Shown: one piece after another, positions 4,980 through 30,546 of the stretch
Position numbering within the stretch: the first letter of the stretch is position 1
Layout of the letters: the number at the start of each line of letters is the position of its first letter
Source of the DNA: Solibacillus merdavium
GTDB lineage: Bacteria; Bacillota; Bacilli; Bacillales_A; Planococcaceae
Length of the DNA: 64,000 nt
Assembly: GCF_014836935.1 (NCBI RefSeq)
Contig: NZ_JACSPW010000002.1
Location: 1-64,000 of the forward strand
Direction of reading: 5' to 3'
The notes under the pieces: model-generated
Seen by the model: only the letters and a program-made list of their open reading frames with translations
The model's database searches: none
What the model was told of the DNA's origin: nothing
Translations under genes and position numbers: made by a program

Positions 4980-5384
4980 ATGAAAAACAACAAAAACATG
5001 AATACTGAATTTGGAATGGAAACAGACGTTAACAAGGTTATTAAGCAAAACCAGCAGGCTGAAGCCAAAAAGCAGCAAGCTTCTGGTTTATACGCTAATA
5101 ACGGTTTACAAAAAAATCCAAGTTCAAAGAACGCGGAATTTGGTATGGAGACCGATGTGAACCAAGTTAAAAAGCAAAACCAACAAGCTGAAGCTAAAAA
5201 GCAGCAAGCTTCTGGTATTTTTGCAAATAGTGGTTTACAAAAGAAACTAAGTTCAATGAACGCGGAGTTTGGAATGGAAACAGATGTAAGCCAAGTTAAA
5301 AAGCAAAACCAACAAGCTGAAGCCGAAAAGCAGCAAGCTTCTGGATTATTTGCTAAAATTCGTTCCCAAAACGGTAATAAATAA
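4980..5384 (+). CDS. sspE: Gamma-type small acid-soluble spore protein (SspE-like)
   Basis: 134 aa from the ATG at 4980. AGGAGGTGAT at 4966-4975 is the ribosome site and rules out the ATG at 4971. The protein consists of three repeats with a 43-residue period (starting near residues 10, 53 and 96), each with EFGMETDV followed by KQNQQAEA and KQQASG. The EFGxETD segment is the expected GPR cleavage region. The composition is rich in Gln, Asn, Ala and Lys and lacks Cys and Trp, as in gamma SASPs that serve as an amino-acid store for germination. CATAATA at 4933-4939 resembles a SigG -10, but the -35 is unclear. The gpr protease gene lies at 25.2 kb. Confidence 0.92.
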   Translation: MKNNKNMNTEFGMETDVNKVIKQNQQAEAKKQQASGLYANNGLQKNPSSKNAEFGMETDVNQVKKQNQQAEAKKQQASGIFANSGLQKKLSSMNAEFGMETDVSQVKKQNQQAEAEKQQASGLFAKIRSQNGNK

Positions 5385-5444: not shown

Positions 5445-5532
5445 AAAGCGTTGGAGCTTAGTGCCCCAACGCTTTCTTCTTAGTACATTTTCATATATTG
5501 ATCACGTTCCCACTGGTGGACAGTTGAACGGT
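5445..5532. repeat. Left attachment copy: displaced glnA 3' end and terminator
   Basis: 88 bp matching 7281-7368 without gaps and with 4 differences. Read on the minus strand it encodes the last glnA codons ([13 protein letters not shown], stop) followed by the glnA terminator hairpin, but no glnA body is attached on its right; identity stops at 5532. One difference is a synonymous Lys codon change and three lie in the terminator loop. This is what an integrase leaves when an element carrying its own gene end recombines into the 3' end of a gene. It is probably the original host end of glnA. Confidence 0.85.
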
Positions 5533-5635
5533 TTCTGCTCCTATATAATAGGTGGAAATTTAGTTCACTAGGAATGTTGATAAATCAATGTTTTGGGGAG
5601 TTCGTTCATTATAAAACACTGCAGAAAATTATTAG

Positions 5636-5680
5636 TTTGTGGGCAATTTGTGGGCAAAGTAGAAAATCATTTGTGGGCAA
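5636..5680 (+). repeat. Left set of three TTTGTGGGCAA repeats
   Basis: Exact 11-mers start at 5636, 5647 and 5670: two in tandem and a third 23 nt after the second. The set lies 104-148 bp inside the left attachment copy. The layout resembles integrase arm-type binding sites. Confidence 0.65.
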
Positions 5681-5947
5681 ATTTTATACAAGAAAATATG
5701 CATATTGGTAAAGGTTATCCACAGTGTTTATCGGACGTGCTATTTTACCTTTTGATCCATTCTTGACGATGGCTAATTAAAAGTTTTCCCTATCATCAAC
5801 CCAAAAATGAAATCTGCAAAAGGATATTTTACATAAATTATCCAAGATAGTATAATAATTCAAAGCCGTTATATGCAGTCCAATACGGCTATTAAATACT
5901 ATTGGTAAAATCATTATTGCTATGCAATTGAACAGGAGGATAAACTA

Positions 5948-6406
5948 TTGCAAAAGAAATTAAAAATAATTGAAGACAGAAAAGCTCTTCTTTTAGCTAT
6001 TGCTTTATTAATATTTATTTGGATCTTTTTCAGTAATTACTGGCATTATCCATCTCCACCATTTGAGTCTCTCACTTCAAAAGAGGTTATTCGTATTTTC
6101 GAGGAAGAAAGTTCTGAGAGCGGATTTTTGAAAATTGCTACTGAAAATAATTTTGATTGGTATACATGTAAGGATACTATCTGTATAGACAAGAATATAT
6201 TTTTCCCCCTTTCAGAGAGAGGTTGGGATAAACAAGATATAACTCCATATTATAAACCGAACGGAAAACTTATACGTATTGAGCATATTTACACTAAGAA
6301 TCAATTTGCCGGTAACTTAGGCACTACTCTAAAAATAGAAGTATACCATTGGGTGGATAATGAAGATATTATTTTTTTGAAAATACCTCAAGATGTAGAT
6401 TTTTAA
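5948..6406 (+). CDS. Uncharacterised membrane-anchored protein in the element
   Basis: 152 aa from a TTG start with AGGAGGA 7 nt upstream. One transmembrane segment (about residues 14-32, ILLAIALLIFIWIFF-like) follows a basic N-terminus, so the rest should be extracytoplasmic. The outer part has a Cys pair (YTCKDTIC) and a repeating beta-like pattern. I do not recognise a family. The base composition is AT-rich compared with the neighbouring chromosome. It lies in the glnA-integrated element and is likely cargo. The reading frame is intact. Confidence 0.55.
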   Translation: MQKKLKIIEDRKALLLAIALLIFIWIFFSNYWHYPSPPFESLTSKEVIRIFEEESSESGFLKIATENNFDWYTCKDTICIDKNIFFPLSERGWDKQDITPYYKPNGKLIRIEHIYTKNQFAGNLGTTLKIEVYHWVDNEDIIFLKIPQDVDF

Positions 6407-6571
6407 TTTAGATAAATTTAAACCAAGGCATATTTAGATAAATTCTAAATATGCTTTTTTATATTAAAAAGGATATTCATTTAGGAATAAAATGTAAATA
6501 ATAATTAAACATCATATAAAATTAAAAAAGGGTAGGCCAAAAATAAATTCTATAAAATAAGGAGTGATAGT

Positions 6572-6994
6572 ATGAAAAAAGCAATTGGAAGTTTACTGTT
6601 CATATTTGCGTGTATCATCCCAACTAGTGTTTTAGCTTCAGAAATTAAAGGCGATACTGAATATTCGTCTATTCAACAAGATGTAAAGTTAGAAAAACGG
6701 GCACAGGAAATAAACGATTACTTTGTCAAATTAGAAGAACTTAAAATTCAATTAGAAAAAAGCGCTTCCAAAGTTGAATCTGCAGTGAGTAATGGTATGA
6801 GTACACTCAACGCCCTTTCAAATTATGAGTCTGCCCTACAACAATATAATGATTACGAGAGCAATTCAATAGATATTGTTGGACTTGAAAAATTAGAGAG
6901 CGAAGCCCCATCAGTTCAGCCATTTTCCACAAAAAATAATGCAACGGTTAGATGGAAGCCCTCTTTCAAGATCAACGTTATGGAATGCCTTTAA
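6572..6994 (+). CDS. Secreted coiled-coil protein, C-terminus probably altered by a rearrangement
   Basis: 140 aa, with GGAGTGA upstream of the ATG. A signal peptide is visible (MKKAIGSLLFIFACIIPTSVLA, cleavage likely near residue 23), followed by a charged helical region (about 30-115) with heptad character. The last about 17 codons run out of frame over the integrase remnant at 6939-7220, so the natural C-terminus has probably been replaced where two DNA segments were joined near 6930-6945. No family is recognised. It is element cargo. Confidence 0.5.
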   Translation: MKKAIGSLLFIFACIIPTSVLASEIKGDTEYSSIQQDVKLEKRAQEINDYFVKLEELKIQLEKSASKVESAVSNGMSTLNALSNYESALQQYNDYESNSIDIVGLEKLESEAPSVQPFSTKNNATVRWKPSFKINVMECL

Positions 6995-7220
6995 ATCCGC
7001 TCAAGAGCACCTAGAACTTGAGCCAATTCCAATTCACTCTACACGGCACACGCATGCTGCTATGCTTATTGAAGCTGAATGGGATATGAAATCTATTGCT
7101 GATAGACTTGGTCATGAATCGCCAACAACTACTATCAATACTTATGCACACATATCGCATAAACATGCAGAAAATACACTTCATAATTTTGATGAATACA
7201 TGGAAAAATTGGGGCAATAA
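6939..7220 (+). pseudogene. Tyrosine integrase, C-terminal remnant
   Basis: 93 codons matching the end of phage/ICE-type tyrosine recombinases. DGSPLSRSTLWNAF leads into the catalytic HSTRHTHA (His and second Arg), LGHES (His/Trp position) and TINTYAHI (nucleophilic Tyr) motifs. The N-terminal arm-binding and core-binding domains, the first catalytic Arg and the Lys are absent. Upstream DNA encodes an unrelated secreted protein, so this is a truncated gene, not a small intact one. It lies 60 bp from the right attachment copy, the usual place for int, and reads toward glnA. Confidence 0.85.
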
Positions 7221-7225
7221 AAAAG

Positions 7226-7269
7226 TTTGTGGGCAAAATGTGGGCAATAAAAAATCAGCTTGTGGGCAG
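7226..7269 (+). repeat. Right set of TTTGTGGGCAA-type repeats
   Basis: Copies start at 7226 (exact), 7237 (AATGTGGGCAA) and 7259 (CTTGTGGGCAG), with spacing of 11 and 22 nt against 11 and 23 in the left set and in the same orientation. Similarity extends into the AAAATCA between copies 2 and 3. The set lies between the integrase stop and the right attachment copy. Confidence 0.65.
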
Positions 7270-7280
7270 CTAAAAGTATA

Positions 7281-7311
7281 AAAGCGTTGGAGCCTACAGC
7301 CCCAACGCTTT
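7281..7311 (-). terminator. Terminator of glnRA
   Basis: AAAGCGTTGG/CCAACGCTTT stem with an 11-nt loop just after the glnA stop, followed on the minus strand by a moderate T-rich run. The displaced copy at 5445-5475 has a longer T-rich tail. Confidence 0.8.
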
Positions 7312-7368
7312 CTTCTTAGTACATCTTCATATATTGATCACGTTCCCACTGGTGGACAGTTGAACGGT
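7281..7368. repeat. Right attachment copy: present glnA 3' end and terminator
   Basis: The 88-bp partner of 5445-5532. Here it is fused to the intact glnA body, so the gene end and its terminator hairpin (about 7281-7311, minus strand) are functional. By the logic of 3'-end integration this copy came with the element. Crossover must lie right of the last difference (7325), within the identical stretch up to 7368. Confidence 0.85.
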
Positions 7369-8650
7369 ACATATCAAACTCAATTTCTTTTGCTTCTTTA
7401 AAGTTTGCATAAATGTGGTTGCCTAATGCTTTTTGCACAACCTCGTCTTTTGCAAGTAATGTTAACGCGTCGTCTAAAGCTGCTGGTAAATTATCGATGC
7501 CGTTTGCTTTACGCTCTTCTTCGTTCATTACATAAATGTTACGGTTAATTGCTGGTGGTGGAGTTAACTTTCTACGAATACCTTCTAAACCAGCCTCTAA
7601 AATAACTGCCATCGCTAAATATGGGTTTGCAGATGGATCAACTGAACGAACTTCTATACGTGTTGAAACTCCACGAGAAGAAGGAATACGGATAAGCGGT
7701 GAACGGTTTTGCGCTGACCATGCTACATAACATGGCGCTTCATAACCTGGTACTAAACGTTTATATGAGTTAACTGTTGGGTTTGTAATTGCTGTAAAGC
7801 CTTGTACGTGCTCCAGAATCCCCGCCATAAATTGCATCGCCGATTCAGATAGGCCTAATTCAGTAGACTCATCATAAAAGGCATTTTCTTTTCCTTTAAA
7901 TAAAGAAACGTTAAAGTGCATTCCTGATCCGGCTTCACCGAATAAAGGTTTTGGCATGAATGTAGCATGTAAGCCATGCTTACGGGCAATTGTTTTAACA
8001 ACTAACTTGAATGTTTGAATATTGTCACAAGCCGTAATTGCATCTGCATATTTAAAGTCGATTTCATGTTGGCCAGGTGCAACTTCATGATGTGAAGCTT
8101 CAATTTCAAAGCCCATTTCTTCTAACTCTAAAACGATGTCACGACGGCAATTTTCGCCAAGATCTGTAGGTGCTAAATCGAAGTAGCCACCATGGTCATT
8201 TACTTCTAAACTTGGTTCACCTTTTGAATCTAATTTAAATAAGAAAAATTCTGGTTCAGGACCTAAGTTGAAGTTTGTAAATCCTAACTCTTCCATTTCT
8301 TTTAATACACGCTTTAAGTTGTTGCGTGGATCACCAGCAAATGGCGTACCGTTTGGATTATAAATATCACAGATGAATCGCGCTACTTTCCCTTTTTCGG
8401 CAGTCCATGGGAAGATCATAAATGAATCGTAATCTGGGTATAAGTACATATCCGATTCTTCAATACGTACGAAACCTTCGATTGAAGAGCCATCAAACAT
8501 CATTTTGTTATCCAATGCTTTATCTAGTTGGCTTACTGGAATTTCTACGTTTTTGATTGTGCCTAAAATGTCTGTAAATTGTAAACGAATGAATTTTACT
8601 TGTTCTTCTTGTACGAGTTTCTTAATGTCTTCTTTTGTGTATTTACCCAC
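7316..8650 (-). CDS. glnA: Glutamine synthetase type I
   Basis: 444 aa from the GTG at 8650, matching the length of B. subtilis GlnA; a GTG at 8662 overlaps the AGGAG site and is unlikely. It condenses glutamate, ammonia and ATP to glutamine. Class I motifs are clear: FDGSSIEGF near residue 53, [11 protein letters not shown] (metal ligands), the [13 protein letters not shown] region, [12 protein letters not shown] (ATP loop) and NRSPLIRIP. It lacks the adenylylation tyrosine region of E. coli, as expected for feedback-inhibited Bacillus enzymes. It lies downstream of glnR in a glnRA operon, with its 3' end occupied by an integrated element. Confidence 0.97.
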
Positions 8651-8713
8651 TAAATTCCACACTCCTAAAATTGTTCAGTAAACGATTCTTACCAAAGTTA
8701 TATAATTTACACG

Positions 8714-28232: not shown

Positions 28233-30546
28233 ATTTCAAATAAATTGAATTCGATTTTTCTATCGTAATTTCACCTTTAGTTATCGTTACTTCTATCGTT
28301 CCTTCCAATCCAGTTGTTGCGTGTGGGATATGGTATGATTCAAAACGATTTACTACATCAATATGCGGATGATTGTACCGATTGTTTTCCCCAGCCATAA
28401 ACACTGCAAATTTCGGGTTTGTCAGCGCAACAAACTCTTCAATGCTTGAAGTCTTGCTCCCATGATGACCGGCCTTTAACAAATCAATATTCCTTAGCTT
28501 TTCTGTATATAGTTGAATTAATTGCTGTTCCCCTTCTTTTTCAAGATCTCCTGTAAACAATGCCTTATACTGATTATGCGTTACCATAATAACAAGCGAA
28601 TCATTATTCCCTTCGTATTCAATATCAGCAGGCCATAAATACTCAAACGTCGTCGCACCAACTTTCCAATAATCCCCTGCCATCTTTTCGATAAGTTTTG
28701 TATTTGTCTTCTTCAGTTCCTGTAAAAAATCATTCATTACAGGCTTTGAAATCGAACCTGGCGTGACATGTACCTCTTTCACAATCACCTCTCGTAAAAC
28801 TTCTTCAGCCCCTTCCACATGGTCGGCATCGGCATGAGATAATACAAATGTATCAATCGATTGTATGCCGCGCCCTTTTAAATAAGGTACTACTATTTGG
28901 CGACCCACCTCATAAGGTGTTTGACGCTCTTTCCATTTCTCCTGATCAAATCTTAATAACCCTCCCGCATCAATCACTATAACGGATTTCCGGTAAGGTA
29001 ATTCAATAACAATGCAGTCTCCCTGCCCCACATTTACAAAGGAAATTTTTAAATCACCGTCCCAATAGGATTGGAAGTGAAAAACTATTGCAGGCAGTAC
29101 TAATAGTAAAATTGCCTTTAAAGTGGATTGTTTATCAAGCAAATAGAAGGTAATGAAAACGGAGCTATATAAGAAGACCAACCATAAGATAGATGGTTTT
29201 CCCGGGTTCCACATTTGAATAATTGGCTGTTGAATGATGAATATAAAGTTTGTAAGTGCCGTACGCAATGGCTCGTATAGGAGAAAAACAAAAGAATCAA
29301 ACGGGAGTGGTAAAAAAGTAAGAACTAAAACCGCAAGATTAATCGGTAGGATAACAAAAGAAAAAAGCGGTACGAAGAAGATATTCGCTATAAAAGAAGA
29401 AAGACTGATTTCAAAAAAGTGAAAGAGTAACAATGGGTAAACGAGGATTTGACAAACAAAGGTGATGAAAAAGGATTGAATCCAAAAGTTAGAATACCGC
29501 GCTAAAATCCGACTCGAGTACACTAAACTGTATGTAGCTAAATAAGAAAGTTGGAAACCTACTTGAAAAATAACACCAGGTTCTAATAGAACAAAAATGA
29601 TAAAGCTCAGTGACAAAGCATCATCCATCGGAATATTCCACCGGAAATACCGGGCAAGCATAATAAATTCAACAACACTTACTGCACGCCATATAGATGG
29701 AGCACCTCCTGCTACAATTGCATACATCGGTAATATTGCAAGAAGGAGAATTGTGGCCGACTCTCTGCGAATGCTCATTCTTAATAACAACTGGAAAAAT
29801 AGGAAAGAAACGAGGGCAACATGCAGTCCGGAAATCGCAAATAAATGTGTAATCCCTAATTTTTGATAGGCTCGGTTCAATTCATCATCGACATTATGCT
29901 GTAAACCGATTAAAAGGGCTTGTGCTTCAGCAACAAGCGAAGGAGGGAAAGTTTCTTCTATATGGAGTTTTAATCGAAAGCGTTGGTCATATAAAGGCTG
30001 TAAAAAAGAATTTCCCTTGCCCACAAAGGTAAGTTGGTGAATTTCGATAATCCCTCTCGCGTTTTTACTTTGCAAATACTGGGCCATAGAAAAGCCATAG
30101 CGGTGCGCAGGAACAGATGGGGATACTTGCTCCCCGACAACAAAAAAATTCGAACCAGCGAGTTGCTGGGCTTCCAGGAGTTGCTTTTCCTGTTCACTTT
30201 TTATTTCGTAGGTTACATATAGCTTTTCGCCTTCTGCATTGGTCATAAAACCTCGTAGCATAACGCCGTTAATTCTGTATTCATCAGACCATGTCAAGAT
30301 TGCCGGAAGTTCGACTGAAACGGAAAGCTTGTTTACTTCATAGGAAAATAAAAGATAACTCCCAATCCCCGTGAAAAAAACGAAGACGAGATGTATTTTG
30401 AGTAATTGCTTATAATGACAAAACAGCAACAGAATAACTAATAATGCAAGTAGCCTTACCGATTCTAATGCAGCACCTGCACTAATACAAATCGACAAGG
30501 CGTAAAATATCCAGTTATGCTTGAACAAGTTTACCAAATAAAGCAT
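28231..30546 (-). CDS. comEC: ComEC, DNA uptake channel
   Basis: 771 aa. Several N-terminal transmembrane helices flank an OB-like soluble loop; the central competence domain (GITHLFAISGLHV near residue 235) forms the membrane channel; the C-terminal part is a metallo-beta-lactamase-like nuclease with LSHADADHVEG and GHHGSKTS. It transports single-stranded DNA during transformation. The start overlaps comEB by 32 nt with GAGGAG inside comEB. Full length indicates that competence machinery is intact here. Confidence 0.95.
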   Translation of the reverse strand: MLYLVNLFKHNWIFYALSICISAGAALESVRLLALLVILLLFCHYKQLLKIHLVFVFFTGIGSYLLFSYEVNKLSVSVELPAILTWSDEYRINGVMLRGFMTNAEGEKLYVTYEIKSEQEKQLLEAQQLAGSNFFVVGEQVSPSVPAHRYGFSMAQYLQSKNARGIIEIHQLTFVGKGNSFLQPLYDQRFRLKLHIEETFPPSLVAEAQALLIGLQHNVDDELNRAYQKLGITHLFAISGLHVALVSFLFFQLLLRMSIRRESATILLLAILPMYAIVAGGAPSIWRAVSVVEFIMLARYFRWNIPMDDALSLSFIIFVLLEPGVIFQVGFQLSYLATYSLVYSSRILARYSNFWIQSFFITFVCQILVYPLLLFHFFEISLSSFIANIFFVPLFSFVILPINLAVLVLTFLPLPFDSFVFLLYEPLRTALTNFIFIIQQPIIQMWNPGKPSILWLVFLYSSVFITFYLLDKQSTLKAILLLVLPAIVFHFQSYWDGDLKISFVNVGQGDCIVIELPYRKSVIVIDAGGLLRFDQEKWKERQTPYEVGRQIVVPYLKGRGIQSIDTFVLSHADADHVEGAEEVLREVIVKEVHVTPGSISKPVMNDFLQELKKTNTKLIEKMAGDYWKVGATTFEYLWPADIEYEGNNDSLVIMVTHNQYKALFTGDLEKEGEQQLIQLYTEKLRNIDLLKAGHHGSKTSSIEEFVALTNPKFAVFMAGENNRYNHPHIDVVNRFESYHIPHATTGLEGTIEVTITKGEITIEKSNSIYLK

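Follow-up and report, generated by a model that had tools for sequence, protein, structure and literature searches.

Positions 5445-7368 of the window, by which we mean the whole 64,000-nucleotide stretch of Solibacillus merdavium DNA analyzed here, are almost certainly the fossil of an integrative element that targets glnA, with an integrase probably from a Bacilli clade that is almost exclusive to this gene. The feature in the window is a fossil of a known mechanism, and the notable result is the clade locked on its target. In Table 1, we report the features of the locus.

Table 1. Features at the 3' end of glnA, in window coordinates.
Feature	Positions	Strand	Remarks
Gamma-type small acid-soluble spore protein (SASP) gene, left flank	4980..5384	+	PF04259, E 7.4e-20; same neighbour at the relatives' empty site
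attL, displaced glnA end (terminator, stop, 16 codons)	5445..5532	+	84/88 to 7281-7368; left flank like the G003 empty site
Crossover zone in attL	5520..5524	.	inferred, invariant -42..-38
Three TTTGTGGGCAA arm-type direct repeats, left end	5636-5646, 5647-5657, 5670-5680	+	putative integrase arm sites
Cargo ORF, 152 aa	5948..6406	+	relatives elsewhere in genus and family
Truncated cargo ORF	6572..6994	+	relatives in G218
C-terminal tyrosine integrase fragment	6939..7220	+	PF00589 positions 101-171 of 172, E 1.9e-16
Three arm-type repeats, right end	7226-7236, 7237-7247, 7259-7269	+	putative integrase arm sites
attR, glnA-proximal copy	7281..7368	+	element-derived terminator and glnA end joined to native glnA body
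Crossover zone in attR	7356..7360	.	inferred, invariant -42..-38
glnA, restored target, 448 aa, open	7316..8662	-	

The two copies of the glnA end align without gaps at a distance of 1,836 bp and are identical at 84 of 88 positions, as the original prediction described. The runner-up 88-mer in the whole window, considering both strands, has only 40/88 identities, so the repeat is not a chance occurrence. Each copy contains the glnA terminator, the stop codon and 16 full codons, where 14 codons had been proposed. Three of the mismatches are in the terminator loop (5458, 5461 and 5462) and one is synonymous (5489), a distribution also given before. The terminator hairpin is strong in both copies relative to shuffled sequences (z of -6.7 and -7.4). 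The interval between the copies is AT-rich as claimed, with 31.9% G+C versus 37.5% for the window. The glnA frame is uninterrupted for 448 codons, and the orphan end stops after 16. ARAGORN finds no tRNA genes in the 64-kb window, which rules out a tRNA gene as the target. On the left side, the SASP gene is the flanking host gene, the flank is undisturbed, and the attL copy is mostly original host DNA. The two window copies are closer to each other than either is to the sequence of G003, a relative in the genus with an empty site, which could reflect gene conversion or an attP that already matched this glnA (glnA1). The SASP gene itself contains three 129-bp repeats.

About 1.7 kb of the element remain between the copies. 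They comprise both element ends with their arm-type repeats, as well as two cargo ORFs and the last quarter of the integrase. An integrase fragment beside the intact glnA had been reported as the C-terminal half of the protein; it is C-terminal, but it amounts to the last quarter, residues 276-376 of the intact 376-aa integrase of genome G009 (82% identity), and the N-terminal three quarters are absent. According to the alignment, the fragment is missing the region where full-length relatives have what we take to be the first catalytic arginine. The window element has no complete integrase, only this fragment, as expected of a remnant; full-length frames are present in G009 and other genomes. 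The integrase stop is at 7220 and the glnA stop at 7316, with the two 3' ends facing each other at a spacing within the roughly 90-200 bp typical of the clade. The cargo ORF at 5948-6406 matches no family of Pfam or PHROGs at E 0.1. It has relatives in 57 of 261 genomes of the family, its own genome included, and it is 84-88% identical to genes at other loci of genomes G015 and G006. As its closest relatives sit elsewhere in the genus, it may derive from the host and have been acquired later, or it may be ordinary cargo. The second ORF, at 6572-6994, has matches in two other genomes and no known family above chance in Pfam or PHROGs. G218 contains two of its relatives, whose frames are 295-299 aa long. 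Because the match of the ORF to the G218 relatives stops at the start of the integrase fragment, one internal deletion near 6940 probably fused this ORF to the integrase remnant. No phage structural family appears above chance among the three element ORFs scanned. The cargo ORFs as a key to the function of the element were rejected, as they match no known family above chance.

In the mechanism that we propose, the element, probably a prophage or a satellite, would have been inserted into the 3' end of glnA by its tyrosine integrase through site-specific recombination. Its attP would have carried the last ~16 codons of glnA, the stop codon and the terminator. Because attP would have carried this copy of the gene end, integration would have replaced the native tail with the element tail and moved the native one to the far end. 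Internal deletions would then have stripped away the bulk of the element and the N-terminal portion of its integrase, and both att sites, the arm sites, the two cargo ORFs and the integrase C-terminus would have survived. That the element carries a gene end of its own and restores glnA was the core of the original prediction, and it agrees with the repeats, the empty site, the intact relatives and the synonymous tails.

The same genome provides a second case. A search of it with the 88-bp repeat returns four matches: besides the two window copies, contig C11 has a pair separated by 7.9 kb and adjoining a second glnA (81% protein identity). The C11 island (L041:7728-15662, 7.8 kb) includes an integrase remnant 91% identical to that of the window, with an internal stop. 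Because the C11 glnA2 also has a tail pair and an integrase remnant, both glnA copies of the S. merdavium genome carry decayed elements. These two remnants are the only matches of the G009 integrase in this genome at E<=1e-30, and the fragment has further integrase-like matches there, which are 23-37% alike.

The 88-bp repeat finds matches in each of the 16 genomes of the genus, and the state of glnA1 rests on 11 of them. The site is occupied in three (G000, G001 and G002), has an integrase fragment in G015, and is empty in seven (G003, G004, G005, G006, G009, G010 and G014). In the empty sites the SASP terminator is directly joined to the glnA terminator, which is the form that had been anticipated. 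For G007, G011 and G013, no integrase is present within the short stretches of about 630-680 bp available at glnA1. In G003, GlnA is 98.7% identical and the left flank is like that of the window up to the repeat; this genome excludes the adverse case of a 1.8-kb region conserved everywhere with no empty form.

Larger islands with a full integrase were also expected in relatives, and we present the case of glnA2 in G009, where a full 376-aa integrase is found about 60 bp from the repeat and the distal tail copy is 28 kb away. The genes that follow the integrase are presumably those of an IrrE-like peptidase and terminase-like proteins. The interval is absent from glnA2 of G003, G005 and G014, in which glnA2 and its outer flank are present. 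The left end of the window element is 81% identical over 197 bp to the distal end of the G009 island and 90% over 198 bp to that of the G006 island, and the right end is 95% identical over 121 bp to G009. Parts of the G009 interval (L042:17143-18501 and L043:7328-9081) resemble DNA of the S. merdavium genome outside the C11 tail pair, so the 28-kb interval may be composite. A membrane-protein/regulator-like gene pair occurs twice in the G009 interval, in these same parts, and again just outside the C11 pair (L041:16346-18172). The element-side edge of attL is glnA1-like in the window and glnA2-like in the G009 and C11 islands. Since these edges follow the local paralogue, they suggest attP variants matched to each glnA paralogue; gene conversion is the alternative. 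The glnA2 of several relatives (L042/L043, L045, L047, L049, L051 and L053) has extra partial GlnA tails, from about 0.6 kb to several kb apart, which suggests stacked or repeated insertions.

Such further tail copies, together with the 84-88% identity of ORF 5948-6406 to other loci of G015 and G006, are what one would look for if the interval were the product of two events, an older glnA element and cargo ORFs that came in afterwards by unrelated means. We regard this as unlikely, as the window has a single att pair and element ends are found on both sides of the cargo.

On the + strand, the 64-kb window has six copies of the motif TGTGGGCA, of which three lie just inside each element end and none elsewhere; the reverse strand has one copy, at 30018. 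Judging from this layout, the repeats would serve as integrase arm sites. Reading by eye the DNA from the integrase stop to the glnA terminator in relatives, we see in many of them a short motif that is present as two direct copies, often with an inverted one in addition, and that may be TGTGGGCA, GTGGTCA, TTTTGGTCA, GTGGGTG, ATCGGGCA, CCGGTCA or others. The arm motif differs among branches and the glnA target is constant.

The association of this integrase with glnA extends far beyond the genus. In the 261 genomes of the family, the integrase is found in 14 at E<=1e-60, several of them fragmented or with stops. Thirteen adjoin glnA, and the remaining one lies at the edge of its contig, where the sequence is terminator-like. 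From a scan of named genomes, we kept by score the best 80 of 211 confirmed integrase relatives. Amongst these best 80 loci, the integrase is opposite a full glnA at 67, opposite a tail copy at 10 (five of them at contig edges) and opposite neither at 3, such that 77 of the best 80 of 211, in 27 genera, are at glnA or a tail copy. The distance from the integrase end to the GlnA end at these loci has a median of 127 bp and ranges from 93 to 1539; at L109, glnA is 1.5 kb off, and the tails at L112 and L130 are weak matches. The three loci with no glnA tail are L086, where the contig ends 130 bp on and has glnA-terminator-like sequence, L117, which has arm-like repeats, and L097, where nothing similar is found.

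Some loci of the clade have arrangements of their own. In Domibacillus mangrovi (NZ_MRWQ01000005, L093 and L156), a single glnA has two clade integrases in tandem, 15 kb apart, and three tail copies are found along the contig. In Priestia abyssalis (L160), the clade integrase adjoins a diverged glutamine synthetase homologue of 54% identity, so that the target may have shifted to a paralogue. In Geomicrobium sp. JCM 19038 (L142), the alignment of the glnA next to the integrase breaks into two near the gene end, perhaps because of a frameshift or a sequencing error.

At the level of the class, 210 of 398 genomes have a match at E<=1e-40, and we fetched 30 loci. The 18 top-scoring loci are all at glnA and the nine lower-scoring full-length ones are all (9/9) elsewhere; of three fragment loci, two are at glnA and one (L273) is not. 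Three loci of family f9, with 28-31% identity and 303-316 bits, are at glnA. The scores of the 18 go down to 303.4 bits and the best non-glnA locus has 302.3, and since the score has no gap at the edge of the clade, the tree is the better divider from other integrases. In a tree of 102 integrases (74 at glnA, 24 elsewhere and 4 unclear), all 74 are in one group of 79 rows with SH-aLRT support of 98; the group also includes the 4 unclear integrases and that of the Staphylococcus epidermidis phage PhiSepi-HH1. This is a quick tree, rooted for drawing only and made with no bootstrap. It omits near-duplicate glnA integrases (20 names) and everything under 330 aa, and the glnA-tail matches of L012 and L275 are counted as spurious. 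The window fragment is too short for the tree and was left out; its 82% relative, the G009 integrase, falls inside the clade. The f9 loci at glnA (L264-L266) group with PhiSepi-HH1 inside the clade, and the PhiSepi-HH1 record ends 22 bp past the integrase match. Viral contigs say little about the target, because most of the 80 loci taken from them end soon after the integrase stop. Five other phage integrases have no glnA tail in their records, two of which break off no more than about 220 bp from the integrase.

We searched 33 host genomes of loci among the best 80 of 211 with a protein profile of the tail, a search that favours protein-like tails and does not require exact identity. Orphan GlnA tails are found at E<=1e-6 in 30 of the 33 (none in G621, G636 and G637). 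In 22/33 genomes, an orphan tail shares contig and strand with glnA and is in every case downstream of it, at 4 to 126 kb. The displaced tails lie within short frames and start near the M-F-R codons, 16-18 codons ahead of the stop; the copy at 5445-5532 does not extend into a full second glnA, an adverse case named beforehand. After the stop, some displaced tails share the terminator and others diverge at once; therefore, the terminator is supplied by the elements themselves. Of 61 evenly drawn Bacilli genomes, 54 have any match and 6, including that of the window, have orphan tails (E<=1e-5).

The common boundary of these displaced tails makes a simple duplication unlikely. A scenario in which the glnA end was duplicated segmentally and unrelated DNA was captured between the copies, the integrase fragment being there by accident, would suit a remnant this short and a cargo ORF (5948-6406) with relatives elsewhere in the genus. 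It would leave unexplained that the tails of 22 other genomes share the M-F-R start at element-sized distances downstream of glnA, that the integrase clade is nearly always at glnA, that the arm-type repeats of this strand of the window are confined to the two element ends, and that both window ends are common to the G009 element. We give such a duplication very little credence.

We compared element-borne and displaced tails in 24 pairs (22 host genomes, the window and G009). For G627, the nearer tail was used and the outer one dropped; the C11 pair is excluded from the codon count, its displaced copy having a one-base deletion that breaks the register. The pairs differ at 54/384 codons, of which 53 are synonymous and 1 is non-synonymous, and 23 of 24 pairs are identical in protein. 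Because 53 of the 54 differences are synonymous, the elements restore and preserve the GlnA protein end. The C-terminal helices of glutamine synthetase (GS) join its two rings and are implicated in its oligomer state, in the part of PMC9249791 that we draw on, and a structurally important end fits the strict synonymous pattern. A device selected to change the GS C-terminal helix, beyond a mere mobile element, would act on just this extreme C-terminus, where helices hold the rings together (PMC9249791, same part), and it is highly improbable given that 23/24 tails are protein-identical and that the 53/54 synonymous differences lend no support to a phage-driven change of the GS tail.

The pairs also point to the position of the strand exchange. 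Sense positions -42 to -38 have 0 mismatches in the 24 pairs, and the adjacent -43 and -37 have 6 and 8. Since it is mismatch-free there and variable on both sides, we place the likely crossover at -42 to -38. Positions -30 to -26 are also invariant, but they do not include a freely varying third base. In many hosts, read by eye, an inverted GTTCC..GGAAC repeat is centred on -42 to -38.

Elements that occupy the 3' end of icd, guaA or rumA are known. They are like the window element in that the end of a conserved gene is used and its frame restored, and they differ in the target gene. One of these targets, guaA, is mentioned in the portion of PMC12016501 considered here. The original prediction knew of no described element of the Bacillales at glnA, but two reports are in print. 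One sentence of PMC6368776, with no att analysis beside it, names the glutamine synthetase gene as the site of the S. epidermidis phage phi909 and of an incomplete phage of S. aureus MCRF184; the target gene is the same as in the window, and the likeness is one of reported site alone. These phages may be kin of the clade, because L264-L266 group with PhiSepi-HH1 inside it. The relevant portion of PMC12016501 reports Macrococcus prophages downstream of glnA, the same site as reported there, likened by site alone and with prophages in place of a remnant. An extract of PMC9570271 gives an S. aureus site between glnA and its neighbour. The closest description of a gene-locked family concerns the dusA-associated tyrosine integrases, which in the sections of Farrugia et al. 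2015 (PMC4482086) used here serve diverse prophages and islands in many bacteria at one protein-coding gene. As in the glnA clade, the family is locked on a gene and the element supplies the replacement gene end; by description, the two differ in that dusA is used at its 5' end in Proteobacterial lineages and glnA at its 3' end in Bacilli. No description of a glnA-targeting integrase family was found in the literature searched, a set that has most subscription papers outside it.

A single fossil thus leads to a rule, in which a clade of Bacilli phage integrases is recognisable by its target. Orphan GlnA tails become precise prophage borders in Bacillus, Paenibacillus, Brevibacillus, Halobacillus and other genera. 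Natural attL/attR pairs are available for locating the crossover, and the glnA end is a candidate cross-genus integration site for genetic tools. Lysogens are a clean case of phage DNA that codes for the end of a core host enzyme. Taking these results jointly, we think it rather likely that the clade stays locked on glnA despite ~28-40% identity and a changing arm motif, that it keeps a pool of GlnA ends that are recombined into hosts, and that in this genus its attP-derived sequence is matched to one of the two glnA paralogues. If true, part of the sequence history of the GS C-terminus runs through phages.

An attP-like tail is found in an isolated phage. SPbetaL5 (OQ921345), a 127-kb phage of B. 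subtilis, has a clade integrase 38% identical to that of G009. About 120 bp past the integrase, in DNA with no annotated gene, it has MFRTQVHPWEREQYMSQY followed by a stop, and this GlnA tail is flanked on both sides by GTGGTCAA-type direct repeats. SPbetaL5 and the window element have in common a GlnA tail, repeats and probably a clade integrase, and they differ in that one is a 127-kb phage and the other a 1.8-kb remnant. An SPbeta-like phage has structural and SPbeta core genes, whereas the ORFs scanned in the window element show no phage structural family. SPbeta itself has spsM as its site and uses a serine recombinase, according to the part of PMC8270828 consulted. Searching 50,697 phage records for GlnA tails, we find eight that match. 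Five are unannotated Listeria records, and the others are SPbetaL5, an Enterococcus record and a Curvibacter record in which the match is in a tail fibre gene.
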